DNA of 64,000 nucleotides, taken from the NCBI RefSeq assembly GCF_029168945.1, contig NC_083602.1, positions 90,096,027 to 90,160,026 on the forward strand, read 5' to 3'. The translations under genes were made by a program, and so were the position numbers. Within the stretch, counting starts at the first letter, position 1, and each line of letters begins with the position of its first letter. Shown here in pieces: positions 8,903 to 59,567 of the stretch. The stretch comes from Cannabis sativa. Its lineage: Eukaryota; Streptophyta; Magnoliopsida; Rosales; Cannabaceae. The notes under the pieces are model-generated. The model saw nothing but the letters and a program-made list of their open reading frames with translations. It did no database searches and was not told where the DNA came from.

Positions 8903-9227
8903 TGTAATAGTCAGTAGTTCCGTAATCTATAAGGGAAAAAATATCGAGTAAGTTGTGCAATCTTATATCGCTTAAAGAAGGTCAAGTGGGATGAGTTTGA
9001 GATTGTATAAGTATGAGACTACATAGATGAATTGATATTGATACTGCTTATATCAATAAGGTGCATCTTGTTTTCTGGTAGCCCAGCATGAAAGAACTCC
9101 ACAATGGGTGACCTCCTGGGAAGTTTTTTTAAAAAGCATGCGAGTGAGGACAAAGTAAACACTCGTGTTGGCTTGTAAGATCAAACGTCATAAGGGTCCA
9201 ATAAAGACTTGAAGCGAGAACGTTAAG
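8903..9227 (+). mobile_element. Solo LTR of a Cassandra-type TRIM, with a deletion in its 5S-derived part
   Basis: Begins TGTAATAGTCAG, aligns throughout with the LTR at 46227-46608, and ends GACTTGAAGCGAGAACGTTA like the LTR at 43421 and 45539. The 5S-rRNA-like segment is recognised by GAAAGAACTCCACA and ATGGGTGACCTCCTGGGAAG. About 34 bp that include the 5S A box are missing between these two blocks when compared with 46396-46505. No internal domain or second LTR is seen nearby, so this is a solo LTR. No clear target duplication. Confidence 0.8.
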
Positions 9228-12200
9228 TAAATTGTGGTAATATATAAATAACATATTATCATATGATGTGAAATTAAATAGAATGTAAAAATTAAATGTT
9301 GTTTTTAATCACTTTGGATTAATTTATTCATGTTTTATTTTTAAAAAAATAAATAAAAAAATGTAGTTCATTAAAAATTGGGTAGGGACAATACAAAAAT
9401 GTAAACAATATTATATATAATATATGATTGGTATTACGTCTTTGTCTTAAGCTGTGGCACCATTCACAGTATTATTAATTAATTAAGATTATAAATTAAT
9501 TAACTACTTATTATTGTAGAAGATAAATATAATATTAACGTTAATTATTATTATTATCTGTAATAAAGCGATAGTTATTTCTTAGAAAGTCCACGTCCGT
9601 ACTCATGATCATACTATGTAGTAGTAGCTATCAATAATAATAATACTAAATTACTAATTAACAACAAAAATTAGTACAAAATTATATTTTTTTTAAATAA
9701 ATAAATAAAATTATAAAGGGGTATTCATATTGAAGATTTCACATAGTGGTATTTAATGGGGCATTCATATTGAAGATTTCAATTATGGAAAACAACATAG
9801 ATTGGAGTTTATATTGTGTTTTCAATAGTTTTCTATCATATGAGTTTTTTGGTACTTAAGAAATGAAAGCTACCTTAAAAGTGTCATTTTCGCAATAGAA
9901 ATTGGTTCCTAATTAAAGAAATTAGGTAACTGCTTGAATTGATTGAATCCCGACATTACATTAAGATGAGTAGATTGAGAGTCTCAGAGACACTAAATCG
10001 ATTTTACCTAATTTAAGGAGTTTCACAATAATATTGTTAATTGGTTTTACCTAATACTCCTTATCATGTACTATCCTATTTTCTAAACACATTTTTTTTT
10101 TTTACATTTTAAGATAGTTTAGTGTTGTGGGAAAAAATGAAGTTGTAATTTTGGTGTTGTAGAAAAGATGAAGTAGATAGGATTAGGTTAAAGTACTCCA
10201 ACATATATCTTTGGGAGCAAAAGTTAAGAAAGAGATTAAATTAGAAGATTGAATATGTCACTCATTTTGTTAAATTAATCTCCACTTGATCACTTTTAAT
10301 GCACATTTGATGTTATATAAACTATAAATACTATACATCTTATTTTATTGTTATAGAAAGTCATACAGTCAAATTGTTATTTTGTCCGAAAAGCATAAAC
10401 AACTAATTCATGAAATACAGAAATAATAAACACCCAAACATCTGAATAACAAATTTTCAAAGAACTTCTAATAACGATTTAAATTTTTATAGTAGAAAAC
10501 TTTCATAGCGAAATCAATCATAATCATAGTTGCTTAAGACTAAAAGTCTTAGTAAGAGGTTCCAATATAATGTGATTATGATCAAAGTCACCCAATTTGC
10601 TTGAAAGACTTTTTTCCCTTTCATTGCAAATAGTAATAATAATAATGATAATAATAATGCACTAGTTTTAGGTTTATTTTAGATGGAATAATCATAGTTG
10701 TATTGTACGGACAAACTCTAATGAACAACAATAAAATTGTCCATAGTAAGGAAGTTGGGCTACAGAACGCATTGGGGAAGAGGCCCATGGAAGTTTGGGC
10801 TTGGGCTTAGACTTCGTCGGGTTTGGGCTTGGGCTTTCCAATCACTGGTTATAATAGTGCGGTGGGCTACCTTGGTCTACTAGTAGGCCAAGAAGATTGA
10901 ACTAGTCCAATCCAACCATGAATTTTGAGGAAAACAAGATAAATAAAAGGAATTATTTCACAAATACACAAATAAAAATACACTAATTTTAAATATTTTT
11001 TATGATTTATTTATAAAAAGTATAGTATTTTAATATATTTTTATATTATACTCTTGTTAGTTTGTTGTTATTTGTATATAATAGAACATCTATCCAATAA
11101 TACACTTGGGACTAAGTAAATTATATTCTAATTGAGAGGTTATAACTAAATAGAGTTACACTAAAAAAAAAAAAAATTAAAAACAAAAAAATATCAACGT
11201 AATAATAATTACAATAAATAATCATTTATACTATATCATAATAGAAATATTTTAGAGTAAATATAATATTCATACATGTATTATAATTTAAAATAAAATT
11301 ATTAATTTTACATAAATAAATTTATATAATACATGTATATATTTTATTAATATGTAATTACAATTTAGAGGTACACTTTGGTAATACGGGACTTACAAAA
11401 TGTATAACTAATTACAATTTAGAGGTTATTCTTATTTATAACTGGCTCAAATTAGGACTTGATCTTTTATAACACATTAGAGGTTATTCTTGAGTAGAGT
11501 ATTCTTAAATAGAGATTCTACTGTATTATTTAAATGCTATTTTTCTGTTATTTTTACGTAATTTTCTTATTGTTGTTATAAAATACTGTAAAAAATGTAA
11601 AAAAAAATATTTAAATGTAAAAAAATAAAAAATTTACAAAAAATAATAATTTATGTAATTATCCCTAAATAAAATGTACAACTCCGAAAATAAAAAAAAA
11701 ATTGTTTGAATGTTTTTAATCTAATCATGTAAATTTCTCTTAATGCCATGTTGATTTTTTAGATCCAAATCTAAATTAAATTGCTTATTATAAAGGATTG
11801 AGATTTGAGCATGTTCTATGTTCAAAAGTCAATAAACAAAGTTATTCTCTTCTTGTCCTTTTAAAACAAAGTATTTCTTTTTAATAACATATTTATAATA
11901 CATAAATCCTACAATTTTATACTAACAAAAAAAAAAATAATAAAAAAAAATGTAAATCAAATTAATCATATTAATTTAATATAATTTGGAAAGAAAGAAG
12001 GGAAAAAAAATAATTGAATTGGGAAAATATTGTAGTGATGGTGGGATGAATATTGTAATGTGGTGCACATGCAGTGACCCATATATTTATATATATATAT
12101 GTATATATATATGTGTATTTATATTAATTTGTATAAGCATCATGCATGGGAGAAAGATGTGTTATTAATGAAGAGACTAATTTTCACGTTTGGCTTTTTC

Positions 12201-37562: not shown

Positions 37563-38654
37563 TATTTTTTTTAATAATAATTATTAAATTAAAATATACG
37601 AAATTTTTGTACAATCTTATAAGTGGAAGTGAGAAAAATATATGAAATCAAACAATTAATTATGTTGATAATGATAAAATGGTTTATGGTAATTTTGAAC
37701 TCTAATTGTCCAAATAATTAATTAAGTTAATTTTTCATCATTGGATTGAATGAGGCTAATTATAATAGTCAAAAACATTGATGGAATGTTTTATCCGACA
37801 AATGGATTGATTGAATGATTTATTATATAGGTACTTTACTTAATGAGATCTTGAATTTTTATTATTATTATTATTTAAAAAAAAAATAATTAGATCTTGA
37901 ATTATTGTTACATCCAAAATGCTTGTTGTTATAGAGAATATTATTAAGTAATTATTTTCTTAAATGGGGTTGAAATTTATTAACTTATAGCCATGTGTGT
38001 CAATTGAATTACCATATTCAAAAAAAGAAAGAAAGAAAAAGAAAAAGAATTAAGACTTGTGTTAAGTCATTTTTCAACACAATAATAAAGTATAGGTCAA
38101 TTCATTGTATAGATTGTAAATTGCACGTATTAATTTTTGTCTTATTATAAGAAAAAAATAATAATAATTCATTTTCATAACATGGCACTTGCATTGAATC
38201 CATATTATTATTTTAATATTTTACTAAGTGACAAAGAAAATTAAATAATGCAACTCTCACTATCTCTAATCTCTATCTTCCTAAATAAATAAATAAATAA
38301 AATTATTGGAATGACTTGTTTAATTGAAGATCGTATATATTGCTAGAAAAATGATAAACTGCAATTTTAATTTTTTTTATAGCTTTCACTATAATTAACT
38401 CCTTTTTTATTTGAGTTCACATAATTTATATAAATTAATTGTAGAATATGTTATTTTGTTCACCACATATAATTTGCTCATTTATTAATTTTATTAATTA
38501 CAACATAATTTGCAGTAGCTCATTTATACTATTAATTATTTGTAGTAAAATGCCATTATTAGACATGAGGACTCAATCATATATAAACAGAACATGAACT
38601 AATAAATCAAAGGTTAAAAATAGACTAACACACAAAATTTTTAGTGGTTCTACC
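37563..38654. other. Intergenic, no gene seen
   Basis: AT-rich sequence without recognisable termini. The last 60 bp before the TRIM, and the stretch 39390-39640 on its other side, together look like an older repeat split by the TRIM insertion. Confidence 0.3.
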
Positions 38655-39389
38655 TGTTAGGCCCCGTTCTTCCATTTTGTTGGGCGCTAACTCACCTTAA
38701 TTTTGACATTAATATGATATTATTCGCTTTGCGCTTAAGCATTCATGATTTTATTTTTAGGCACCTTTCTCAAAAAACCTCATACTAATGGAGTAGGTAT
38801 AACACTTATATTCAAGACAACTCTTGCCTATTATTCCAATGTAATACTTGAGTTGATACCCCAACAATCCTCCCCTCAAATCAAGGATCACATACTCGTG
38901 GCCTCCCTTCCAACGAAACCACCTTATACCGCCGCTATAACCAATGGAACTCGGTGCCTGGCTATCACCTTTGTCAGGAATGACTTTCAACAGAGGTCCT
39001 ATCACCGATCTCTATCTTGTACCGCCGTAATCATCAACGAGACACGTCACCTCAATATCAGGTAGACTTTCGAAACAAGGCACCATATAGAACTTTAATT
39101 GCGAGGTCATCACATTTAGGGCTTCCCCCACACATCACAAATGCAGTTTACTATCTCAGCGTTCCTAAACTTTTAGCTCTGATACCACTTGTTGGGCCTC
39201 GTTCTTCCACCTAGTCGGGCTGCTACCTCACATTGACTCCCACATTAGTATTATATTGTTTGCTTTGAGCTTAAGCCCTCACAATTTTATTATTGGAAAT
39301 CTTCATACTAATGACGTAAGTAGAACAGTTATATCTAAGATAATTACTGCCTATTCTTCTAATGTGGGACTTGAGTTGATACCCCAACA
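38655..39389 (-). mobile_element. Complete TRIM retrotransposon, minus orientation, 735 bp
   Basis: Two LTRs in direct orientation, 39190-39389 (5' in the element's sense, 200 bp) and 38655-38866 (3', 212 bp), each starting TGTTGGGGTATCAACTCAAG and ending in a GGCCCAACA/GGCCTAACA type terminus when read on the minus strand. Next to the 5' LTR is a primer-binding site TGGTATCAGAGC (39176-39187, complementary to the 3' end of initiator tRNA-Met). Next to the 3' LTR is a polypurine tract GATTTGAGGGGAGGAT (38867-38882). The element is flanked by CTACC on both sides (38650-38654 and 39390-39394). The 323-bp interior has no coding capacity, so it depends on proteins from another element. The LTRs differ at many sites, so the insertion is not recent. 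Confidence 0.93.
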
Positions 39390-42468: not shown

Positions 42469-42992
42469 TTATACCTTACAAGAGTACTAAACACTATTAG
42501 TTTCCTAAAATATTTCTCTTTTGAAAAATATAAACTCTAAATTATCATTTAATAAATACAAGAGTCAATGACATAAAGTTATAAACTCCAAGAATTAATT
42601 AATTTTTATTTCTCTCTTCATAGAATTGGAATTATTACCTTACTGATTTGATTTCCCATATATATTATATATAATAAATAAAACAATGAAGAACATGCAA
42701 GTATAAAATCACTATTATTGTTATAATGGTGGAGTGGTTGCTTAATTTGAATTAATTAATTAATTAATATGACTAGGTTTATTTATGCATGCTTTCACAT
42801 GGAATGGCATGCAATTGTTAAAATAAATTAAAGTTTTTGCTACAAAAAATAATGGCTCTTAATCATCCAAGGGGTCAGTGCTCTTATTCAACTTTCATAA
42901 AATTAATAATTAGTACATTTTCAGTATTTTTTGAGAAATTAAATTAATAAAATTAAACATCAAAAAAAAAATATATCATTAATCAAACTACT

Positions 42993-43421
42993 TGTAACGT
43001 CCCCGCTTCAAGCCTCCATTGGGCCCTTACACCCACGGAATGAATGACTCTTATACACGAGTACGTCACTGCATTTCCTTCATGGGCCGGCAGTGACCCT
43101 GCGAGACCAACACAAGTGTTTCCAGCGTGCTTTGTCCTCACTCACACGCTTCCTGGGAAGACTTCCCAGGAGGTCACCCATCCTTGAAATTGCTCCCAAG
43201 CCAAGCACGCTTAACTGTGGAGTTCTTTCGTGATGGGTGACCTCCTGGGAAGTCTTCCCAGGAAGCGTGTGAGTGAGGACAAAGCACGCTGGAAACACTT
43301 GTGTTGGTCTGTAGGGCCGGGCCGTCGTCCATGAAGCAGCTAGAGAGACGTACTCGTGTATAAGAGCCATTCATTCCGTGGGTGTAAGGACCCAATGGAG
43401 GCTTGAAGCGGGGACGTTACA
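42993..43421 (+). repeat. Palindromic 5' LTR made of 5S-rRNA-derived, Cassandra-like sequence
   Basis: The first about 190 bp are a nearly perfect inverted copy of the last about 190 bp (TGTAACGTCCCCGCTTCAAG at the left; its complement CTTGAAGCGGGGACGTTACA at the right). Between them lies a single segment of about 50 bp holding the 5S A-box region in antisense (complement reads GAACTCCACAGTTAAGCGTG). The 5S C-box motif GATGGGTGACCTCCTGGGAA occurs once in each orientation. The normal 5' half of a Cassandra LTR, as seen at 46227-46395, is absent. A TATA-like GTATAAGAG occurs in both arms in opposite directions. Confidence 0.85.
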
Positions 43422-43423
43422 AA

Positions 43424-43436
43424 TGGTATCAGAGCC
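43424..43436 (+). promoter_or_regulatory. Primer-binding site, initiator tRNA-Met type
   Basis: TGGTATCAGAGCC, two bases after the LTR end, is complementary to the 3' end of plant initiator tRNA-Met. Confidence 0.9.
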
Positions 43437-43866
43437 ACAGTTACATTGATCTTGAATTCACGCGACATACACACCATCGCTGCAAAGGATCAACTTGTCA
43501 TCAAGTATGTATGCCTTATATATGTTATGTCTTATATATTAAATTTGGTTTAGTCTTTATCTTTTGATTTTCCTTTAGTTAGCTAGAAGTTTAGGGTATG
43601 GTTAATCGAAACAATTAACTGATTCTTCGGAGTTAGAATTTTAGTATAACTCAAACAATTTTCTTATTAGTGTATTTTTTTTATGAGTGAAGATTATTTA
43701 TTTATTTATTTATTTTACATGGTGAATTGTTGCTTGATGATTTACGTTTTTTTTAAGTTTATATAATTTAGTGTATAGATATTTCCTTTTTCAGCGAGAT
43801 ACATCTTTCGTTATTATTCTTACCGCTACCATCTCCTTTCTTTTGAAGAACAAGTTAAGGGATTTG

Positions 43867-45460
43867 ATGGAAAACGGTGAACCCAGAAGATCAACCCGGT
43901 TGAATGAAAGAGCGGCTGTAAGAGACCGAGCTAGAGGTCGGGGGCGAGGAGGTGCTCACGGTCGAGGTCGCGGTCGAGGCAGGGGAAACCAGCATGTCCC
44001 TGCCGAGGCGGTGATCCAGGAGAATCAAAATGCCCCTGTAAATGGACAACAACCAGGTCAAGGTGGGGGCAACCACGAAGTCCCTGCTGGGGTAGTTGGT
44101 CAAGAACACCAAAACGCCCCTGTAGTGGTGCCACCACAACAAGAAGATTTGGCGCAAGAAGTTGCTCGTCTCAAGGAAGAAATTAGGAAGCGAGATGAAG
44201 AGGCTCACAACCGTCAGGAACAACCCAATCAAGGACAACATCAATTTTTGCCGGTGCAATACATGCCTGTGCCGGAGGGTCGATGGGAACCAATATATGA
44301 AAGGTTCCGCAAGCAACACCCACTAAATTTTGAAGGGGGCTCAAATCCAATGGAAGCTGAAGAATGGTTAAGAATAGTGGAAGGTATTGGTGAGTACATG
44401 CGGCTCGGTAACGGAGATAGTGTAGCTTGTGCTGCTAGTTTATTGAAAAAGGATGCCCGCATCTGGTGGGATGTTATTAAACAAACACGGGATGTGGCCG
44501 CAATGACCTGGGCTGACTTTGTACAAGTTTTTAACAAAAAATACTACAGTGAAGCAATACGCTCAGCTAGAGTTAATGAGTTCACGAACCTGAGGCAGGG
44601 TAAGTCTACAGTTACAGAGTATGCTCGCCAATTTGACAGATTAGCAAAGTTTGCCACAGATCTGGTTCCTACTGAGTTTCTGAGGATTCATCGTTTTACT
44701 GAAGGGCTCGACTCCCGAATAAGTCGGGACATAGCGATGTCAGGAGTAAGGGCAACCACGTATGCTGAGGTACTGGAAAAAGCCCTAGAAGCTGAGTTGT
44801 GTGAAAGTCGTATACAGAAAGACAATACGAAGGTGGGAGGCCGAGAAAGGCCAGTAACGGAGGTGGTGATAACAAAAGAAAACTGCCAAGTAACCAACAC
44901 AACGAAGCCGACAAGAGAAACAAGATAGGGTCCAATAACTACAAAGGGAAGAAGCCATATGTGGAGTACCCCCTATGCCCAACATGTGGTCGTAAGCATC
45001 CGGGAGAATGTCGACTGAAAGGCAAGACTTGTTACAAGTGTGGGCAACCAGGCCACTATAAGAAGGACTGTCCACAAAAGGGTGATCAACTCAAGGATGA
45101 CAAACTTGTCCCGGCTCGAGTATTTGCACTAACCGAGGGGGAGGCCGAGACTAGTAACAACGTGGTTGCGGTCGATTTCTATCTCTGGAAAACTATGTAC
45201 TGTTTTATTTGATTCTGGAGCTACGCACTCATTTATTGCTTTAAAGATGATAGATAAGTTAGAACTACCGTATGTAAACTTTAGTTATAAGTTCATGACG
45301 GAGTTGCCCTCGGGCGAGGTTATGATATCATCTAGAGGAGTGCGGGATGCGCCAATAAGGATTGCAGACAAGGAACTTAGTGGAGATCTGATAGAGCTGG
45401 AGATGAGGGATTACGATCTTATCTTGGGTATGGATTGGCTATCACGACATGAAGCAGCCA
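43867..45460 (+). pseudogene. gag-protease of the 5S-LTR element, two frameshifts and truncated
   Basis: Starts MENGEPRRSTRLNERA at 43867; Arg/Gly-rich N-terminus (about residues 19-40), then a Ty3-type retrotransposon gag domain (PLNFEGGSNPMEAEEWL, KKDARIWWDVI, KKYYSEAIRSARVNEF). The frame shifts near 44860-44930, after which a [13 protein letters not shown] segment and the CCHC knuckle [14 protein letters not shown] follow (about 44985-45072). It shifts back near 45165, giving an aspartic protease with FDSGATHSF (about 45208) and LGMDWLSRH (about 45424). It stops there because of a deletion into the 3' LTR. The protein resembles Tekay/chromovirus gag-pro. Without RT or chromodomain the lineage is provisional. 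Confidence 0.85.
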
Positions 45461-45539
45461 GAGTGACGTACTCGTGTATAAGAGCCATTCATTCCGTGGG
45501 TGTAAGGGCCCAATGGAGGCTTGAAGCGGGGACGTTACA
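45452..45539 (+). repeat. 3' LTR remnant of the 5S-LTR element
   Basis: From CATGAAGCAGC onward it matches the last about 88 bp of the 5' LTR right arm (GACGTACTCGTGTATAAGAG, GGCTTGAAGCGGGGACGTTA). The join to the protease coding sequence falls exactly in CATGAAGCAGC, present both in the protease frame and in the LTR. Confidence 0.9.
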
Positions 45540-45544
45540 CTACT

Positions 45545-46226: not shown

Positions 46227-46608
46227 TGTGACAGTCAGTAGTCCCGTGATCCGTAAGGGGAAACACCGGGTAAGCTGTACAATCCCACACCGCCTTGGGA
46301 AAGGTCAAGTGGGATGATTCTGAGACTGTGTAGGTATGGGACTATACAGTTGAAGAGAGCTTAAATGGATTGATTGGTACTACCTATATCAACAAGGTGC
46401 ATCTTGTTTTCCGGTAGCCCATCTCGAAAGAACTCCACAGTTAAGCGTGCTTGACTTGGAGCAATTTCAAGGATGGGTGACCTCCTGGGAAGTTTTCCCA
46501 GGATGCGTGTGAGTGAGGACAAAGCACGCTGAGAACACTTGTGTTGGTTTGTAGGGTCAGTCATCAATCCATGAAGCAGCTAGAGTGACGTACTCGTGTA
46601 TAAGAACC
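46227..46608 (+). mobile_element. Cassandra-type LTR, truncated on the right by insertion of the Tat element
   Basis: Begins TGTGACAGTCAGTAGTCCCG, aligned to the solo LTR at 8903, and contains a 5S-rRNA-like segment at about 46396-46505. It has GAACTCCACAGTTAAGCGTG (A-box region) and GATGGGTGACCTCCTGGGAA (C-box region), matching plant 5S rRNA closely in the 3' two thirds. It ends at GTATAAGAACC where TGTTGCTCC of the next LTR begins; the homologous LTRs continue beyond this point. This is the complete Cassandra 5' half that the LTR at 42993 lacks. Confidence 0.85.
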
Positions 46609-47391: not shown

Positions 47392-47454
47392 TTTTGGTGC
47401 TTTCATTGAGAGCTGAGGAAAGCTGCTTCGCAACAAGCATTTAACTTCACAACA

Positions 47455-49723
47455 ATGGTGGAGACAAGAGCTACACGTCACCCTCGCCCTCTAGAAGACG
47501 CTCAAGATCCCAACGAAGAGGATGTAGCTTCAAGGGCAGCAGAGGAGTCCGAGGAAGAAATTCCAGATGAGAACCATGAGGAACACCTCGACGAATACGC
47601 TTACGATGATGGAAGCTACCGAGAGCTGGTGCTCCTCAGACAAAAAGCCATCGATCACGAAGCTGAGATCGAAGCTCAGAAAGTGCAAAATCAAAAAATG
47701 CACGAGGTGATGCTAGCCATGCAAAAAGCCATGGAGGCCGCTGGCATTCACGTGCATCCCAAGGCAATGGCCGCTGGACTCGATGGGGAGCCAGCTACGT
47801 CGTCGCCCAATTCCCAGCAACAAAGGCCCAGGGAACCTAGCCCTATAAGGCACCCTGCTGAGGAAAACCAAACGAAAAACCCTACTTCTGCCCCTGGTCG
47901 GAAGAAAAAGGCGCAGGATCCGCGCAAGGTCCGCTCAGATTTCCCTAAAGGGAAAGGTCCGCAGAGGGGCAAGCCCCGAAGAGGGAGTCTTGGCCCTCAG
48001 GATCGAGGGGACCGAAAGAGCGTTTCCGTGCACCAGAACCGGGGGTAGAGGAAGAGGAGGACGAAATGTCCACCCGTTGATTTGAGAAATCAAATCAATG
48101 GGAATCAAGGTGACCTCCGGGATCACCTTGATCAAAAGATACGGACCCGAAGTCTCCTCGGGTACTGTAAACGAAGGGATTATGGCAGAGCTTGCCAGCC
48201 TTCGAAAAGATATTGCCCGAGTCTCCCGAAGGCAGAAGGGAGATGACTCCGACTCGGACAGTGAGGACCGGGAGCCCTGCGCCAAGCATATCCTGGAGGC
48301 GGAGCTCCCTAAAAACTTCAAAATGCCCGAAATGGCGGCATATACTGGGAACTCCGACCCCAGCGATCACCTGTCACGATTCAATCGAGTCATGACAGTC
48401 ATGCGGGTCAGCAATGACGCCAAGTGCCTATGCTTCCCCCTCACTCTGAGCGGCTCGGCGGAGGAGTGGTTCAAGAAACTAGAACCAGGATCGGTGGGAT
48501 GTTGGAACAAACTCCAAACCAACTTCCGGAGGCAATTTGTCGCCGCCAGGAAGGTAAATTTGGAAGTTAGTGCCTTGACTAACATCAAGCAACTACCCAC
48601 CGAGACTTTGAAAAATTACATCAAGAGGTTCCGAGAGGAAGCCTCGAGGACCAAGAAGGTTGACGACGGACAACAGCTTGCGCTTCTCCAAGCAGGAATC
48701 CGTACTGGGACTCCCTTCTGGAACGAATTACAGCAAGAAGGCGCTGCTAGCCTTCAGGACTTCCAGAAGCGAGTCCAAAAATATATTAACCTCGAAGAAG
48801 CCCAGATTGTGGCTTACGGAGGCTATTATCCAACCGGGATGGCAGGATACATGCAGGAGTATCGCCCTCGGGTACTGTCCCGACCGCGACCCCTCCGGTT
48901 AGTGGCATACAGTTTTCTGCCACTCCCGGGTACAACCAAGGGCAAGTTCTGCCCCCGGCATCCTCCCATTACGGCAATCCGTCCGGGGTGAATGGACGGG
49001 CTCCTTCACAGGCTGCCCCAACCGCTAGCTTAACAGGCCCCACTCAAGGGTCTAGAAGCAAGAGGTCCTCCAAGGGCGACACCGAACGGGAGAGAAGCGC
49101 CAAAAGAAGGGGTACACACCCCAATACACCCGATACACAGAGCTCACGGACTCTCAGGAACGTGTCTATTTTGCCACAAGGCAGAATACGCATTACCGGA
49201 GACCCCAGCCTTTGTACAGGGACAGCTCTCGGAGAGATCCGAGCAAAAGGTGCGAATATCACAATGACATCGGTCACAGCACCAACGAGTGTAAAAATCT
49301 CAAGGATGAGATTGAGAATCTGATCCGGTTGGGCCACCTCTATGAGTGGATCAAAAATAGGTTACCCCACCTTAACCCGGGGCAGGTGGCCGGGGGCATG
49401 CCTTCGGGGACACCAGGGGGTACGGCGGAGTATTGCCTCCGTTTGCTCCCGCAGGTGACACCCAGCATATACCCGGACTACCGCCTCGGCCTAATGGACG
49501 GGTAGCCATGATCTCCGGAGGACCCCATATCGGAGGAAACACTCGGAAGGAGCGAAAGAGATATGCCGAGGCCGCAAGGCACAGTGAAGTGTGGGAGGTC
49601 ACTCAACTCCCAGCTCAAAGGCCTCGGCTAATGGACCAACCCATAACGTTCACGGAAGAAGACGCCAAGACGGTGCGTTTTCCTCATCACGACCGTAGTC
49701 ATAGAGACCCCCAGTGCAAATAA
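47455..49723 (+). pseudogene. gag region of the Tat element, several frameshifts
   Basis: Opens MVETRATRHPRPLED at 47455 with an acidic coiled-coil-like N-terminus. The frame breaks at about 48046, resumes by 48098 with a gag core (AAYTGNSDPSDHLSRFN, GSAEEWFKKL, NFRRQFVAARK, KNYIKRFREEASR), breaks again near 48870, and resumes in another frame near 49212 with CEYHNDIGHSTNECKNL, a zinc-knuckle-like segment. It breaks again near 49400-49430. At least four frame changes make it non-functional. Confidence 0.85.
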
Positions 49724-49724
49724 A

Positions 49725-52465
49725 GTGGTGGCCAGGGTCCTGATTGATAATGGAAGTTCCGTGAACTTGCTCTTCAAAGAGGCCTTCACTGCGATAGGAT
49801 TGACCGACCGGGACCTCTCTCCTAGCGGATCGCAGCTCACAGGGTTTAACGGGACAACTCTAATCCCGATGGGAAAAGTCAGGCTCCCAGTTACCCTGTG
49901 CCCGGACACTCCACAGAGCACGTTTAAGTACTGCACCTTCGTGGTGGTAGACTGTCCAACAGCCTACAACGCAATCTTAGGCCGACCGGCCCTCGTCGAC
50001 TTCGGTGCAATAACTTCTATCCGACACCTATGCCTAAAATTTCCTACCCAGGAAGCCGGAGTCGGAACGGTGAGGGGAAACCAGGGAGAGGCCAGGCAAT
50101 GTTACAACGTTGCCACCCATTTGCCAGTGCTCATGGTCCGGGGGCCCCCTGAAGTAGAGAAGGCTGAAGAAGACGAGTTGGATCCTCGTATAGGATCCGA
50201 AAGGGTCGTAGAACCAATGGAGGACGTCGAAGAGATACCAGTGTGCGACGACGACTCCACCAAAGTACTCCGGATAGGGAGAGGCCTAGATCCGGAGGAA
50301 AAGGATAAAATAATAAAAACACTGAAGAGCGCCATTGATGTTTTTGCGTGGCGCCAAGAGGACATGACCGGCATCAGCCCTCATGTCATCACCCATGTCC
50401 TCAACGTCAATCCGGACATGCCCCCTATACAACAAAAGAGACGCCCGCTCGACTCGGCGAAAGCCGAGGCCTTAGAGAAAGAGGTGGATAAACTTTTGTC
50501 CAACAGCATGATCCGCGACGTATACTATCCGGAATGGCTGGCCAATCCGGTCCTGGTGCCCAAGCCGAACGGAACTTGGCGGGTTTGCATAGATTTCACA
50601 GATCTAAACAAAGCCTGCCCAAAGGACTGCTTTCCGCTGCCCAGGATTGACCAGATGGTGGACGCCACCTCCGGATTCAAACTGTTATCTTTCATGGATG
50701 CCTATGCGGGGTACAATCAAATAAAGATGCATACGGCAGACCAGGAGTGCACTAGCTTCAGGACCGATAGGGGGGTATACTGTTATCTAGTCATGCCTTT
50801 CGGATTTGAAAAAGCAGGAAAGCGACCTATCAAAGAATGGTTAACCGGATGTTTAAAGGCCTCCTGGGACGAAACATGGAAGTATATGTAGACGACATGC
50901 TCGTCAAATCCAAAGCATGCAATAGCCATGCAGACGACTTAGAAGAATGTTTCGAAGTCGTTCGGAGATACGGCATGAAGCTCAATCCGAAGAAGTGTAC
51001 CTTCGGAGTCAAGTCGGGAAAATTCCTGGGCTTCATAGTCAGCCAGAGAGGGATTGAGGCGAACCCGGAGAAAATTCAAGCTCTCTTGGACATGCCATCC
51101 CCCAGGAAGCATAAGGACGTGCAAAGTTTGACCGGAAAGGTAGCCGCGTTGAGCCGTTTTATCTCACGATCCACGGACAAGTGCATACCCTTCTTCAACA
51201 TACTGAAGAAATGCCAAAAGTTCGAATGGACGGACGAATGCGAGGAGGCATTCAAAAGGTTAAAAGACCATATGGCAAAACCTCCTATCCTATCAAAGCC
51301 CGTCCTTGGAGAAGACTTGTTCCTTTACTTGGCGGTCTCCGAACATGCGGTCAGTGCTGCATTGGTCCGGGAGGAAGAAAAGGTCCAGCATCCCGTGTAC
51401 TATGTTAGTAAACGCATGATAGGAGCCGAGACGAGGTACCCGGTCATCGAAAAACTGGTATTCTGCCTCCTGATGGCATCACGGAAGTTGAGACCCTACT
51501 TCCAAGCCCATCCAATCAGAGTTTTGACCAATCATCCACTCCGGCAAGTCCTCCAGAAACCTGAAGCCTCCGGAAGACTCCTCAAATGGGCAATGGAACT
51601 GAGTCAGTTTGACTTGCATTACGTGCCCCGGATTTCTGTAAAAGGCCAAGCCTTGGCAGACTTCATCACCGAATGTAATGAAGCCGAGGCAACAGCCAAT
51701 ACTCCGGAGCCACCCATCCCCACTTGGAGAGTATTCGTGGATGGAGCTTCAAACGAAAACGGTTCGGGAGCCGGAGTAGCTATGATATCACCCACCGGGT
51801 TGCGGCTCCAGGCAGCACTCCGATTCAACTTCACAGCTTCGAACAATGAAGCCGAATATGAGGCTCTAATAGCAGGGCTAAGATTGGCTAAAGCTGTAGG
51901 AGCCAAGAGGGTGGAAATCTACAGTGATTCCCAGCTGGTCGTAAACCAAGTTTCCGGAGAATACCAAACCCGCGGCGAAAGAATGGCCGCGTACGTAACA
52001 ATAGTCCGGGAACTGCTCCACGAGTTCACGGACTACAAAATAGAAAGAATCCCCCGAGAAAAGAACGCTCATGCGGACTGTCTGGCTAAGTTAGCCTCGG
52101 ATAGTGAAATCGAAGAACTGGGGGTAGTACCCGTGGAACGCTTGGCAGAGCCAAGCATCAAAATAAAAGAGACCACACAAACGGTTGGGCAAGAACCCAG
52201 CTGGATGGTCCCCATCATAAAATACATAACCACAGGTGAGTTGCCCCAAGAGAGGGCACTGTCTCGAAAGATTCAGTATCAGGCTCATCGTTATGTAATG
52301 ATGGACCAAATTCTCTACCGGAGAGGACTCAGCATGCCTTATTTAAGGTGTGTATCGGACCCTGAAGCTAGACAAATCATGCTGGAGGTCCACGAAGGGT
52401 TCTGTGGAGATCATACGGGAGGACCCAGCCTCTCAAAGAAAATATTGAGGCAGGGATACTTCTGG
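49725..52465 (+). pseudogene. pol of the Tat element: protease, RT, RNase H and archaeal-type RNase H; frameshifted and cut by Athila
   Basis: Protease VLIDNGSSVNLLF near the start (usual catalytic DNGSS); RT from about 50470 (WLANPVLVPKPNG, RVCIDFTDLNKACPKD, SFMDAYAGYNQI). A frameshift at about 50805-50837 falls just after VMPFG. RT continues in the next frame with VYVDDMLVKS (catalytic DD at about 50891) and LNPKKCTFGV. Next come an RT-associated RNase H with LYLAVSEHAVSAAL (catalytic Asp already replaced, common in this lineage) and archaeal-type RNase H WRVFVDGASNENGSGAG ... SNNEAEYEALIAGL ... IYSDSQLVVNQV ... HADCLAKLAS (51725-52100). The frame ends at 52465 in the integrase N-terminus, interrupted by the Athila LTR. 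Confidence 0.9.
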
Positions 52466-53997
52466 TGATAACTCTAAGATTTAGAGTTATTATCATATCT
52501 TTAAGCTTGAATTTAATGTGAATTGTGGATCAATTAATGTTTATATTGTGTAATTGTGTCTAGTTTGTTGTGTCTTTGTAATAAATGAAAGTGTGTGTGT
52601 TAGTAAGTGTTAAATAGACTTATGTTATTGTTTTTATGTGTTTTAAGCAGAAAAAATACAAGAATAGGTATCTGAAAATTTTTGGGACAAAGGGAAAAAG
52701 GAGCAGGAAAATGATTATTGCTGACTGGCATTGCTGTAGCATTCATCGCGTAGCAATCTGTCAGCCCAGTAAGTTTATTTTGGCAGAATGTCCAGCTGGC
52801 TTTAATGAAAAGAAAAACGAGCTGAGGTGGCGGAATTTGGCTAGTGACTCAACAAACATGTGGAAAATGAAGGACAAGTGGGTGATGATTGGGATTTCCA
52901 ATTAGGGTAAACTTTGGTACCCTAATTGGGGAGCAAAAAGAAAAAGGGAGAAGGATTAAAAAAGAGGGTGGCTGCACTTGAATGAAGTACGAAATATACA
53001 GCAGAGAAAAAGAAAGTTTCTAAGTACTAAGAAGGAAGAAGAGTACAAAGAAGAAGAAGATTGAGAAGAAGGAGAAGAAGGCAACATTCAAAGAAGGATT
53101 TGAGCTCAACACTCATCTCTCTTGCTCTCCACTTCGTTTTGTATCATGTTCTTCACTTTAAGCTTTTCTTTAACTTCATGAACAACATACTTTCTGGTTT
53201 TGAGTTTCAAATTTCAGCTATGAACTAAACTTGTTTGAGATTTGGGTGGTTATAAACCCTTGTATGGACTAGTGTTTTGATTTTGCAATGATGAAGTAAT
53301 CTTGGCTTAGTTCAATTAGTTGTGATGAAATGTTGAATGAATGTTAATTTTTGGCCATCTTTAACATTTAGCAAGCTAGATCTTACTTGGAAAAGTAAGA
53401 CCTAGTTGAACCCTTCTAATTGATGCATGATTTTTACCTTTACTTTTAGGTATTAATTAGTAGTGAAATAGGAATATTTTGCTACCATGTATAACTAAGG
53501 ATTTGATGCTTTATTGGGCTATTTGTGATCTAAACTGATGTAGGAATGCATTGTGAGGTTATGAATGGTTAGTTGCAAGTTTTGGAAAAAGCTTGCTGGT
53601 TTTTGTTGAAATTTGTTAACTCTTGAGGATTCTTTGAGAGTCATTGTTTGGTCATTCTTTGTATCAACTGGGACATACAAGTGGAAATTAATCACCCAAG
53701 TCTATTTTCTAAATCTGAAATTACCACCATTTTAATCACTTTTAGTTCCTTATTTTTAGTTTATTTAGTTTAAAAAATTAGTTCTCAAATTTAGAATCAA
53801 GGCTACAAAATTTTCTCATGAATTAATGTGTTACTTTATTTTATTTTTATTTGAAATTCTTGGAATTAATTTTAGTTGATTTAACATTATTTAGTAAAAA
53901 GTCCCTGTGGAGACGAACTTTGATTACTTATCATTGTATTACTTGTTTGTGATTGTGTACACTTGCGCAATTATAAAGCAATATAATTTTCACAACA
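52466..53997 (+). repeat. 5' LTR of the Athila element (1532 bp)
   Basis: Starts TGATAACTCTAAGATTTAGA immediately after the Tat frame and ends CACAACA, followed by AG and the primer-binding site. The length is typical of Athila LTRs. No 3' LTR copy is available in the window for dating. Confidence 0.85.
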
Positions 53998-54003
53998 AGT
54001 TTT

Positions 54004-54021
54004 TGGCGCCGTTCTTGGGGA
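54004..54021 (+). promoter_or_regulatory. Primer-binding site, tRNA-Asp type
   Basis: TGGCGCCGTTCTTGGGGA, matching the usual Athila/Tat TGGCGCCGTTGCCGGGGA at all but three positions. Confidence 0.85.
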
Positions 54022-54125
54022 CTTTTAAGTTCTAAATTTTGTTTTATCAACTAATTGACATTCTAAGAATTTTTGTGCTTTTAATCTTGCTGGTTTTTCT
54101 TTGAAATCTCAGGTATCTATAGTGT

Positions 54126-57100
54126 ATGAACCAACAAGAGGACTTTGAACTTGCTCCTATTGATCCCGAGATTGAACGTACATTCCGAAGAAGAAGAAGG
54201 GTTCAAAAGGCTAAGGGTCGAGATATCATGGCTGAAAATTTTGATGATGATGGGGTTGCTCCACAAATTGCTAATCCCGTCATGTTGGCAGATGATCGAG
54301 CAAGGGCTATAAGGGAGTATGCAGCCCCCATGTTTAATGAGCTCAATCCAGGCATTGTGAGGCCTGAAATACAAGCACCGCACTTTGAGCTCAAGCCAGT
54401 GATGTTTCAAATGCTCCAAACCGTGGGGCAATTCAGCGGGATGCCAACTGAAGATCCTCACCTCCATCTCCGTTCATTTTTGGAGGTGAGTGATTCTTTC
54501 AAGATCCAAGGAGTGAGTGAAGAGGTGTTAAGGTTGAAGCTATTCCCATTCTCATTACGAGACCGAGCTAGATCATGGCTCAACACTTTGCCGCCTGATT
54601 CTGTGACCAATTGGAATGACCTTGCTGAGAAGTTTCTGAGGAAATACTTTCCTCCTACTAGAAATGCAAAATTCAGAAGTGAGATCATGTCTTTTCAGCA
54701 ACTTGAAGATGAGTCCACAAGTGATGCGTGGGAGAGGTTTAAGGAACTTTTGCGAAAGTGTCCACATCATGGCATTCCACATTGTATTCAGATGGAGACT
54801 TTTTATAATGGGTTGAATGCAGCTTCTCGAATGGTGTTAGATGCATCGGCCAATGGTGCTATTTTGTCGAAGTCTTACAATGAAGCATTTGAGATTTTGG
54901 AGACCATTGCAAGTAACAACTACCAATGGTCCAACACAAGAGCTCCAACAAGTAGAAAAGTGGCGGGAGTCCTTGAGGTAGATGCAATAACAGCTTTGAC
55001 AGCTCAAATGGCTTCCATGACGAATGTTTTGAAGAATTTGAGTATTGGGAATGCTAAAAATATTCAACCAGCTGCTACCATTCAAAGTGATGATGTCTCA
55101 TGTGTGTTTTGTGGAGAAGGGCATGTGTTTGAGAAGTGTCCATCTAATCCGGAGTCCGTTTGTTACATGGGAAATCAGAATTTTAACAGAAACAATGGGG
55201 CATTCTCAAACTCTTACAATCAATCTTGGAAGAATCATCCTAATTTTTCTTGGGGGGGTCAAGGAGCAAGCTCAAGTACCGCACCAGCCCAAGGAAGACA
55301 AGCATATCCACCGGGTTTTTCACAACAACCCCGACATTCACAACATGCTCAAAATGCCCAACCAAGCTCTTTGGAGAGTCTTATGCGGGATTATATGGCA
55401 AAAAATGATGCGGTGATACAAAGTCAAGCTGCCTCTCTTCGAAACTTAGAGTTGCAACTTGGACATTTGGCCAATGAATTGAAAGCTAGGCCGCAAGGTT
55501 CTTTGCCTAGTGACACGGAGAATCCAAGGAGGGATGGGAAGGAGCAATGCAAATCCATTCACTTGAGGAGTGGCAAGCATCTGAAAAATTCCGAGGAGGA
55601 AATAAAGGGTAGTGGGGAGCCCACTTCAATCCAAAATGACGAAAAGTTGAGTAAAAAAACTGCCCAGAAAATTGCTGATACCAGACCAGTTGATACAGCA
55701 TCGGGTCAGCAATCTGACAGTCAGCAATCCGCACCAGTATGTACTAAACCACCCCTTCCATTTCCTCAAAGATTTCGGAAACAGCAGCAAGATGGGCAAT
55801 TCAAGAAGTTTTTAGATGTGTTGAAGCAGCTCCATATCAATATTCCATTGGTGGAAGCATTGGAGCAAATGCCAAATTATGTCAAGTTCTTAAAAGACAT
55901 TTTGACGAAGAAAAGGAGGTTGGGGGAGTTTGAAACTGTAGCTCTTACCGAAGGATGCAGCGCCATGTTGAAAAGTAAGATTCCACCGAAGTTGAAGGAT
56001 CCGGGTAGTTTTACAATCCCTTGCTCTATTGGGGGGCGGGATGTTGGAAGAGCCTTATGTGATTTGGGTGCAAGCATCAACCTCATGCCTATGTCGATCT
56101 TTAAGAAGTTGGGTATTGGTGAAGCACGTCCTACAACTGTTACATTGCAACTTGCTGACAGGTCCATGGCCCATCCGGAAGGAAAAATAGAAGATGTTCT
56201 AGTACAGGTTGACAAGTTCATTTTTCCAGCTGATTTCATCATCCTAGACTATGAAGCTGATCGAGATGTACCTATTATCTTGGGTCGACCATTCCTTGCT
56301 ACCGGGAGAACTCTGATTGATGTGCAAAATGGGGAGCTCACAATGAGGGTGAATGATCAAAAAGTCACCTTTAATGTGTTCAATGCTATGAGATTTCCGG
56401 ATGAGATAGAAGAGTGTTCCCGCATAAGTGTAATTGATTCGCTAGTGGCTGAAAAATTTCACAAGGAAGCTTGGAGGGATGAGAAATTTATAAGTTCTTT
56501 TGATGAGCTTGAAGACTTGAGTGAAGATGAAGACAACCAAGTTGCTTGGGTGGAGCCATTGCAACCTATTCCTAACTTCAAGAAGCCCTTTGAGTCTTTG
56601 GAGTTGAAGGAAAGTAATTTTAAGCCTCCAAAACCCTCCATCCAAGAACCACCGAAGTTGGAGTTGAAACCCTTGCCAAGCCATCTGAAGTATGCCTATT
56701 TGGGGGAGAATGACACGCTGCCCGTTATTATAGCATCAAACTTGGTAGTTGAAAATGAAGGTGCTTTGCTAGAGGTGTTGAAAAAGCATAAGAGAGCAAT
56801 CGGGTGGACTATGGCGGACATAAGGGGTATTAGTCCAACGATTTGCACACACAAGATACTTTTAGAAGCTGGTTGTAGTAATTCTGTTGAGCATCAGCGA
56901 AGATTGAATCCTGTCATGAAAGAAGTGGTGCGAAAAGAAGTGATCAAGTGGCTAGATTATGGTATTGTGTACCCAATTTCGGATAGCTCATGGGTTAGTC
57001 CTGTTCAATGTGTGCCCAAGAAAGGAGGAGTCACGGTGGTGGCCAATGCAAACAATGAGTTGATTCCTACTCGAACCGTGACTGGTTGGAGGGTGTGTAT

Positions 57101-59567
57101 GGACTACCGGAAGCTAAACAATGCTACTCGGAAGGATCATTTCCCGCTGCCATTTATTGACCAAATGTTGGATCGTTTGGCGGGAAAAGAGTTTTATTGC
57201 TTTCTTGACGGATATTCGGGTTACAATCAGATTTCTATAGCACCGGAAGACCAAGAGAAAACCACCTTCACTTGTCCATATGGTACCTTTGCCTTTAGGA
57301 GGATGCCATTTGGATTGTGCAATGCTCCCGCAACTTTCCAAAGGTGTATGATGGCTATTTTCTCGGATATGGCTGAAAGTATTTTGGAGATATTCATGGA
57401 TGACTTCTCTATCTATGGGGATTCATTTGGGGTGTGTTTGGAGAATTTGGAAAGAGTGTTAGCAAGATGTGAAGAAACCAACTTGGTGCTTAATTGGGAG
57501 AAATGTCACTTCATGGTTCAAGAGGGTATTGTGTTGGGTCACAAAGTGTCTAGCAAGGGGATAGAAGTTGACAAGGCAAAGCTAGAAGTGATTGAGAAGC
57601 TACCAGCCCCTACAACGGTGAAAGGCATTAGAAGCTTCCTTGGACACGCGGGTTTCTATAGGCGCTTCATTAAAGACTTTTCTAAGGTGTCCAAACCCTT
57701 GTGTAACTTGCTAGAACAAAATAGACCATTTGAGTTTACCGCTGAATGTAATGAAGCATTTTTGAAGTTGAAGACAGCTCTTGTTACGGCTCCCGTGATT
57801 GTAGCACCCGATTGGTCATTGCCCTTTGAACTCATGTGTGATGCAAGTGATTTTGCCGTTGGGGCCGTTCTTGGGCAGCGGAAGAATAAGATCTTTCATT
57901 CCATTTATTATGCAAGCAAAACTCTTGTTGATGCCCAAATTAACTACACCACTACTGAGAAAGAGTTGCTAGCGGTGGTTTTTGCCTTTGAGAAATTCAG
58001 ATCGTATCTTGTGGGAACCAAGGTGGTTGTGTATAATGATCATTCGGCAATCAAGTATTTGATAACCAAGAAAGATTCTAAACCGAGGCTTATTCGTTGG
58101 GTTTTGTTGCTACAAGAGTTTGACTTGGAAATTCGAGACAGAAAAGGGACAGAAAACAAAGTGGCGGATCATCTCTCTAGGTTGGAAACTAACAATCACA
58201 GCAGCCACTTAGAGGGAGAATTCCAAATTCAAGACTCATTCCCAGATGAGCAACTGCTATTGGTAGAGCAAACACGGGTACCATGGTATGCAGACATTGT
58301 TAATTACTTAGTTGGAGGTGCCCATCCACCTGATTTTACCAAGCAGCAGCTCAAAAAGTTCCTTCATGATAGCAAGTTTTATTTTTGGGATGAGCCATAC
58401 TTGTACAAGCAGTGCCCTGATCGTATTATGCGGAGATGTGTGCCAATGGGTGAAGTTAGAAGCATCTTGGAGCATTGTCATTCAGCTCCTTATGGTGGCC
58501 ATTTTGGTGGACAACGCACGGCGGCCAAGGTTTTTCAATCTGGGTATTATTGGCCTTCGATTTTTAAAGATGCTCATGCTTTTGTTCAACAATGTGATCG
58601 CTGCCAGAGAGTTGGAAATATCTCCGCCAGGAATGAAATGCCTCTTAATTGTATCTTGGAGGTGGAGTTGTTTGACGTGTGGGGTATCGACTTCATGGGA
58701 CCTTTCCCACAATCCTTTGGGAATCTCTACATTCTAGTGGCGGTGGATTATGTGTCAAAGTGGGTGGAGGCAATTGCTAGTCCCAAGAATGATGCTCGAG
58801 TGGTTATGAAGTTCCTTCATAAACATGTTTTTACAAGGTTTGGGACTCCTAGAGCCTTGATAAGTGATGAGGGAACACACTTTGTGAACAAAGTGTTGGC
58901 TGCCCTCTTGGCAAAATATAGTGTAAAACACAAAATTGCTACTGCATACCACCCACAGACCAACGGGCAAGCTGAAATATCTAATCGGGAAATTAAAGGC
59001 ATATTGGAGAAGGTTGTAAATCCCAACAGAAAAGATTGGTCCCAACGCCTTGATGATGCACTTTGGGCGTATAGGACAGCATATAAAACTCCTCTAGGCA
59101 TGTCTCCATATCGCCTAGTTTATGGGAAAGCATGCCATCTTCCCGTGGAGTTAGAACACAAGGCGTTTTGGGCACTAAAACATCTCAATATGGATATTTC
59201 AAAATTTGGAGAAGCAAGAAAGTTACAGCTGAACGAGTTGGATGAATTGCGTTTGTTTTCCTATGAGAATGCTAAATTGTACAAGGAGAAGACAAAGAGA
59301 TGGCATGATGAGAGAATCAAGGAAAGAGTTTTTGCAAAAGGACAAGAAGTGTTACTTTTTAATTCAAGACTCAAACTCTTTCCGGGAAAATTAAAGTCCC
59401 GTTGGTCTGGCCCGTTTACTGTGCAAGAAGTGACTCCTTTTGGTGCGATTACAGTGAAAGATCAACAATCCGGGAGGGAATTTAAAGTGAACGGGCAGCG
59501 GCTGAAACACTATTGGAGAGGCGAGGTCAACCGAGAGAAGACCTCAATTTCTTTGAAAGATGCTTGA
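54126..59567 (+). CDS. Athila gag-pol polyprotein, uninterrupted, 1813 aa
   Basis: Gag core about residues 85-240 ([48 protein letters not shown]); zinc knuckle [13 protein letters not shown] (326-338); aspartic protease [13 protein letters not shown] with Asp646, and [15 protein letters not shown]. Reverse transcriptase about 945-1120 ([51 protein letters not shown] at 1090-1093); RNase H about 1230-1355 ([39 protein letters not shown]). Integrase zinc-binding [13 protein letters not shown]...CDRCQ (about 1450-1495) and catalytic core with Asp in GIDFMGPF, Asp in ISDEGTHF and the Glu in [14 protein letters not shown]. The C-terminus has [16 protein letters not shown]. No stop or frameshift interrupts it, and all catalytic residues I can check are present. 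It makes the capsid-like particle, processes it, copies the RNA and inserts the DNA. Confidence 0.95.

Follow-up and report, generated by a model that had tools for sequence, protein, structure and literature searches.

Hybrid insertions and palindromic LTRs point to a Ty3/gypsy family as a candidate helper of Cassandra in Cannabis sativa

INTRODUCTION

Cassandra is reported throughout the vascular plants (PMC7215508). Kojima 2024 states that nothing yet indicates which autonomous family mobilises it, and expects the two to have no long LTR sequence in common (PMC10886601). Gao 2016 lists larger related elements for 11 of 289 TRIM subfamilies, with LTRs 79-98% alike, and makes no mention of Cassandra where it treats putative autonomous elements (PMC4717578). 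For HIV-1, the available portions of two papers describe self-priming of strong-stop DNA (PMC4668388) and jumps of strong-stop cDNA (PMC10986323).

Here we describe an insertion in a 64,000-nucleotide stretch of Cannabis sativa DNA (the window) and the set of genomic insertions to which it is related. The coding family from which its interior derives resembles plant Ty3/gypsy chromoviruses, presumably of the Tekay lineage, in its Ty3 capsid, RVP_2 protease, RT, integrase, SH3_Tf2-1 and chromodomain-like end; it differs from them in that the Chromo match falls below the curated cut-off and that in the hybrids the Ty3 5' LTR has given way to a Cassandra LTR or has one behind it. With the Cassandra TRIM, as far as the available text of PMC7215508 and PMC10853983 describes it, these insertions share the LTR 5S boxes A and C, the primer site TGGTATCAGAGC, a 5-bp duplication and tandem arrays. 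Whereas the published element is without a coding interior, its LTRs here bound Ty3 gag-pol, and some 5' LTRs are palindromic. As in the TRIMs with larger relatives, a small element is paired with a coding element and terminal sequence is held in common; in the accessible account of those TRIMs, however, the LTRs are shared (PMC4717578), while here the LTRs are unrelated and the link consists of physical hybrids. The turn-back or transfer of minus-strand strong-stop DNA recalls HIV-1, where the accessible sections concern aberrant cDNA (PMC4668388, PMC10986323); here, in contrast, the products are genomic and carry target duplications. In the available text of the literature searched, the scope of which does not take in Maiwald 2021 and Kalendar 2008, no Cassandra-Ty3 hybrid or palindromic Cassandra LTR is reported.

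RESULTS AND DISCUSSION

A single, damaged insertion in the window

The pentamer CTACT is duplicated exactly on either side of 42993-45539 (5' copy at 42988-42992, 3' copy at 45540-45544). The stretch is thus a single insertion with a 5-bp target site duplication, as the first-pass annotation had maintained against the view of two adjacent elements. Its parts are as follows.

42988-42992, no strand: 5' target site duplication CTACT, an exact match to 45540-45544
42993-43182, minus strand: left arm of the palindromic 5' LTR, the inverted right (U5) half of a Cassandra LTR, with TGTAACGTCCCC at its start as a U5-type end
43183-43231, minus strand: loop, the 5S-derived Cassandra segment in antisense, with boxes A and C; Rfam 5S below gathering score
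43232-43421, plus strand: right arm, a normally oriented right half of a Cassandra LTR, with GGGGACGTTACA at its end
43422-43866, plus strand: Ty3-family leader; 43421-43870 matched full length in the scored genome copies
43424-43435, plus strand: primer binding site TGGTATCAGAGC
43867-44925, plus strand: gag open frame (Retrotrans_gag, Ty3_capsid), off-frame relative to the rest of the polyprotein past about 44830-44844
44926-45447, plus strand: zinc-knuckle and protease (RVP_2) remnant, with frame shift 2 near 45170; LGMDWLSRH are the final Ty3 residues
45446-45449, plus strand: CATG joint of protease and Cassandra LTR; the intact relative P0001 continues LSRHGATIDC
45448-45539, plus strand: terminal 92 bp of a Cassandra LTR, without the 5S segment
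45540-45544, no strand: 3' target site duplication CTACT

The primer site begins at 43424, two bases past the 5' LTR, where it had been placed before, and its presence beside that LTR is as a Cassandra TRIM requires. Boxes A and C are both matched, in the 5' LTR only. In place of the two full 5S-bearing LTRs of a Cassandra TRIM, the element has a palindromic 5' LTR and a 92-bp 3' remnant, and in place of a coding-free interior it has remnants of gag and protease. The earlier description of both ends as Cassandra-like holds for their sequence, the 3'-terminal 92 bp and the end of the 5' "LTR" sharing 97% identity; it needs correction in that these 92 bp, without 5S, are all there is of the 3' end.

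The first 429 bp of the insertion form a near-palindrome. Its arms (42993-43182 and 43232-43421) differ at 23 of 190 positions, 21 of which are confined to the block 43068-43103, and both align with the right half of ordinary Cassandra LTRs. A search of the whole 64-kb window for exact inverted 25-mers within 1.5 kb returned, besides this palindrome, one match, an A/T run. Box A (43205-43216) and box C (43172-43184, overlapping the left arm) lie on the minus strand, antisense to gag, while the ordinary Cassandra LTR at about 46227 of the same window carries both on the plus strand. A MIR861 miRNA hairpin was rejected, its 38.5 bits comparing with a cut-off of 70; the palindrome accounts for the match.

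The Rfam 5S model gives the window LTR 25.2 bits (E 0.065), below the gathering score of 38; we assign 5S identity because of the boxes A and C, as given in the available text of PMC7215508, together with the alignment to ordinary Cassandra LTRs. The first-pass annotation had missed the palindrome, the antisense 5S and the damaged state of the copy.

The interior and its Ty3/gypsy family

Profile matches to Retrotrans_gag (3.8e-17), Ty3_capsid (2.4e-10) and RVP_2 (7.8e-25) confirm the Ty3-type gag and protease first proposed for the interior. The frame is shifted twice, between 44829 and 44844 and again near 45170, and Ty3 similarity ends at the CATG joint directly after LGMDWLSRH. The protein nearest to the gag frame is P0001 of Cannabis sativa (99% identity over 91%); since P0001 continues GATIDC beyond LSRH, the window copy has been cut at LSRH. 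Hop (Humulus lupulus) also has proteins related to this gag. A protein search with the protease-LTR joint gave 45 matches, of which the best, P0066 (79% over 65%), is without the joint, and no second joint was seen in the three of the 45 sequences that were read. Scans of viral and genome contig collections gave no match, and one further scan gave two stretches for which tblastn found no relative. P0067, from a 6.8-kb contig labelled Amborella trichopoda, is identical by eye to the Cannabis protease stretch, possibly a contaminated record.

The window copy has neither RT nor integrase. Elsewhere in the family, RVT_1 is found in the relative P0004, and RT also in P0111. In the two hybrid insertions (described below) examined for integrase, the rve match is above the cut-off in one and below it in the other, and the Chromo matches reach 17.8 and 17.6 bits where the cut-off is 25.1; SH3_Tf2-1 is also encoded by the family. 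In four hybrids, the 3' part of the Ty3 interior has stretches free of stops that range from 75 to 1314 residues.

The leader (43421-43870) was searched in its own genome (770.7 Mb, 18 contigs), giving 147 candidates, 40 of which were scored. All 40, the window included, match over the full length at 96-100%. For the 39 copies other than the window, 1.5 kb upstream was inspected. A Ty3 LTR end that the Cassandra LTR does not match at E 1e-8 precedes the primer site in 32 of them (17 and 15 in two batches); it reads GGGCGTTACA or a near variant, and the matched stretch covers 88 to 501 bp of a 501-bp probe. The family of the window gag thus usually has its own LTR, which in two of the hybrids (D and F) measures about 2.2-2.3 kb. 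In the other seven (3 and 4 per batch), the Ty3 primer site is preceded by a complete Cassandra LTR in normal orientation. The outcome that the first-pass annotation had named as fatal to its idea, 5S-type ends at this locus alone, did not come about.

Cassandra-Ty3 hybrids across the genome

A pattern for the junction of Cassandra LTR and Ty3 leader (at most 2 mismatches) occurs at 17 genome sites, and its reversed control at none. The 17 include the window and the seven copies with a Cassandra LTR upstream; these eight were read in detail. Hybrids were sought between Cassandra and this one Ty3 family, and the seven beyond the window are built as follows.

Hybrid A, C5:74.60M: Cassandra LTR, Ty3 interior, Ty3 LTR (to probe position 1453), Cassandra LTR
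Hybrid B, C1:47.51M: Cassandra LTR, Ty3 interior, Ty3 LTR (rearranged), 70-bp Cassandra interior, Cassandra LTR
Hybrid C, C5:67.74M: Ty3 LTR, Cassandra interior, Cassandra LTR, Ty3 interior, Ty3 LTR, Cassandra interior, Cassandra LTR
Hybrid D, C5:76.37M: Ty3 LTR, Cassandra interior, Cassandra LTR, Ty3 interior, Ty3 LTR
Hybrid E, C6:41.79M: starts like hybrid D; no Ty3 3' LTR within the stretches fetched
Hybrid F, C7:47.17M: Ty3 LTR, Cassandra interior, Cassandra LTR, Ty3 interior, Ty3 LTR (order as in hybrid D)
Hybrid G, C10:20.71M: starts like hybrid D, then an inverted partial copy of Cassandra LTR, Cassandra interior, Ty3 LTR

A one-off chimera limited to the window locus is thereby rejected, the genome holding further hybrids. 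Hybrids A and B are bounded by paired Cassandra LTRs that enclose Ty3 interior and Ty3 LTR, and have exact 5-bp duplications on both sides (by eye, CTTTT and AATTC). Hybrids D and F are bounded by Ty3 LTRs enclosing Cassandra and are duplicated on both sides as well (by eye, ATAAT and GTATC). Between the two outer ends of hybrid C no 5-bp match was seen, and its 5' Ty3 LTR appears truncated. Within an insertion the Cassandra LTRs are nearly identical (A, 434/435; B, 431/432; C, inner against terminal, 433/433), whereas between insertions they differ more (A against B, 410/435 identical; A against C, 414/435), as expected of copies made from one template.

The first-pass annotation had offered two origins for the element. 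A chromovirus that exchanged LTRs with Cassandra comes close to the genome picture, with its 17 junctions and two insertions having paired Cassandra LTRs and duplications; common descent, with the element as a coding relative of Cassandra, is not supported, given the Ty3 LTR end of 32 of the 39 other family copies. The window copy itself is a broken, deleted, hairpin-ended derivative, and the interest resides in its set of hybrids.

Two further arrangements were seen beside the hybrids. Ordinary Cassandra LTR-interior-LTR units stand in tandem a few kb past hybrid A (C5:74593487-74595383), and the inverted partial copy at the end of hybrid G (C10:20711861-20713674) comprises Cassandra LTR 1-124, Cassandra interior and Ty3 LTR.

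A border block common to both elements

In this genome Cassandra is non-coding, with LTRs of 432-435 bp and a 70-bp interior that holds the primer site and a purine-rich end. At the border of LTR and interior it has a block in common with the Ty3 family, CGTTACA-AA-TGGTAYCAGAGCC (LTR end plus primer site). Joints of Cassandra LTR to Ty3 interior fall within this block at seven loci and in the window, and joints of Ty3 LTR to Cassandra interior do so at five loci, to which the second such joints of hybrids B and C are added. The inner joint of hybrid A, which connects position 1453 of the Ty3 LTR with the start of a Cassandra LTR, is not part of it. The sequences show that LTR and interior have been swapped in both directions at the shared block. 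The result is Ty3 LTR - Cassandra interior - Cassandra LTR - Ty3 interior - Ty3 LTR, and units excised from this order have moved, bounded by either LTR pair.

When LTR elements are reverse-transcribed, the border block serves tRNA priming and the second strand transfer, and RNAs packaged together could therefore trade LTRs at this point. Because TGGTATCAGAGC is a common primer site, the block says less for a specific partnership than it might seem to.

Further palindromic Cassandra insertions

The 429-bp palindrome was searched in the genome (2151 candidates, 40 scored, at least 155 matches; locus counts are lower bounds), and full-length matches on both strands were found at at least four loci, namely the window, C10:62.87M, C4:11.39M and C4:2.04M. 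The three loci outside the window have a palindromic LTR followed by Cassandra interior and a normal Cassandra LTR, and are flanked exactly by TCCCT, GATCT and ATTAT. By eye, their turn points differ from one another and from that of the window, and the palindromes are therefore taken as separate events. A partial, decayed palindrome nested in Cassandra interior at C2:55684400-55685200 (C2:55.68M) was left out of the locus count.

Over 185 positions, the two arms differ by 4 mismatches at C10, by 2 mismatches and 10 gap positions at C4:11.39M, by 10 mismatches at C4:2.04M, and by 13 mismatches and 4 gap positions in the window. Compared with the 3' LTR of the same insertion, each arm at C10 has 16 mismatches and 2 gaps. 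At C4:2.04M this comparison gives 184/185 for the right arm and 9 mismatches for the left arm, an inequality that indicates two templates. Self-priming and priming on a second molecule may thus both occur in palindrome formation. In the window the arms differ in one 36-bp block, for which simple self-priming is insufficient; this palindrome needs two templates or later conversion.

As a proxy for strong-stop DNA, the ordinary Cassandra LTR at about 46227 was folded. An end at GATGGG, the turn point of the window, pairs with CCCATC at 0.63-0.99 per base. An end stem of at least 0.6 forms at 5 of 151 possible ends, that of the window among them, and likewise in 6 of 200 mononucleotide shuffles. 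This support for the window turn point is mild, since the other three loci turned elsewhere.

A possible route, and the alternatives

We think it probable that the window holds a damaged hybrid, that Cassandra and Ty3 were swapped at the level of the block and reverse-transcribed together, and that the Ty3 family is a candidate Cassandra helper. Joint reverse transcription is favoured because of the 17 junctions against 0, the hybrids A, B, D and F with their duplications, the shared block and the palindromes, and because the Ty3 family encodes RT and integrase; from such reverse transcription together with the swap at the block, the candidate helper would follow. Whether the family is in fact the helper of Cassandra, at least in the Cannabis genome, with particles that package Cassandra RNA, we hold to be evenly balanced; the hybrids and U5/U5 palindromes would then be fossils of shared reverse transcription, including a recurrent self- or twin-primed strong-stop route whose product still integrates. 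Through their paired LTRs and target duplications, the hybrids single out one specific candidate for the autonomous partner of Cassandra.

The presumed route begins in a virus-like particle that would reverse-transcribe both Cassandra and Ty3 RNAs, the two recombining as strands are transferred at the primer site that they share. A palindrome on the left only and with a U5-type start, as in the window, fits strong-stop DNA turning back near its 3' end; the three further palindromic insertions, with their exact duplications, normal 3' LTRs and individual turn points, point to self- or cross-primed strong-stop DNA. The 3' end of Cassandra minus-strand strong-stop DNA may have turned onto itself or onto a second strong-stop DNA, and copying of the turned-back strand would have run as far as the U5 end and on into the tRNA primer. 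In the second strand transfer, the primer site could then have linked this palindromic product to a Ty3 interior, and the insert, with U5-type ends on both sides, would have integrated and made the 5-bp duplication. Such ends suggest that a pair of U5 ends was acceptable to integrase, and the palindromic insertions that self-priming of strong-stop DNA need not always lead to a dead end. What lay between protease and 3' LTR was presumably lost then or later at the CATG microhomology.

The main alternative, recombination at the DNA level between Cassandra and Ty3 copies or Ty3 one-LTR circles at the shared chromosomal block, would call for no common particle, the hybrids being copied later as LTR elements. 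The block is in principle long enough, ordinary Cassandra tandem arrays adjoin hybrid A, and the order of hybrid B is that of one Ty3 unit inserted into Cassandra at the block. Such recombination alone, however, leaves palindromic left ends with exact duplications unexplained, and the near-identical LTR pairs of hybrids A and B still demand later reverse transcription of the hybrid; we consider this account unlikely. An assembly or library artefact, by a fold-back read or a mis-join, is very improbable: inverted duplications do arise from fold-back, and the case is judged here from the assembly, not from reads, but a fold-back read is rejected on the ground that the arms are not identical (23/190), four palindromes carry exact flanking duplications, and the junction recurs at 17 sites. 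That the palindrome is the regular LTR, inherited as such, of a distinct coding family deserves scarcely any credence, since, although it is found at four loci, the other three have a normal Cassandra 3' LTR and the 70-bp Cassandra interior, and 32/39 copies of the gag family have the Ty3 LTR end.

Other elements of the window

Two pieces of ordinary Cassandra LTR lie elsewhere in the window, one at 46227-46608, where similarity fades after about 46608 beside the next element, and a second at 8903-9228, degraded and with box A lost. A small TRIM-like element occupies 38652-39389 on the minus strand, with terminal repeats about 81% alike and TGGTATCAGAGC at 39176-39187. Downstream of the insertion, large open frames of other gypsy-type elements extend over 47410-59567.
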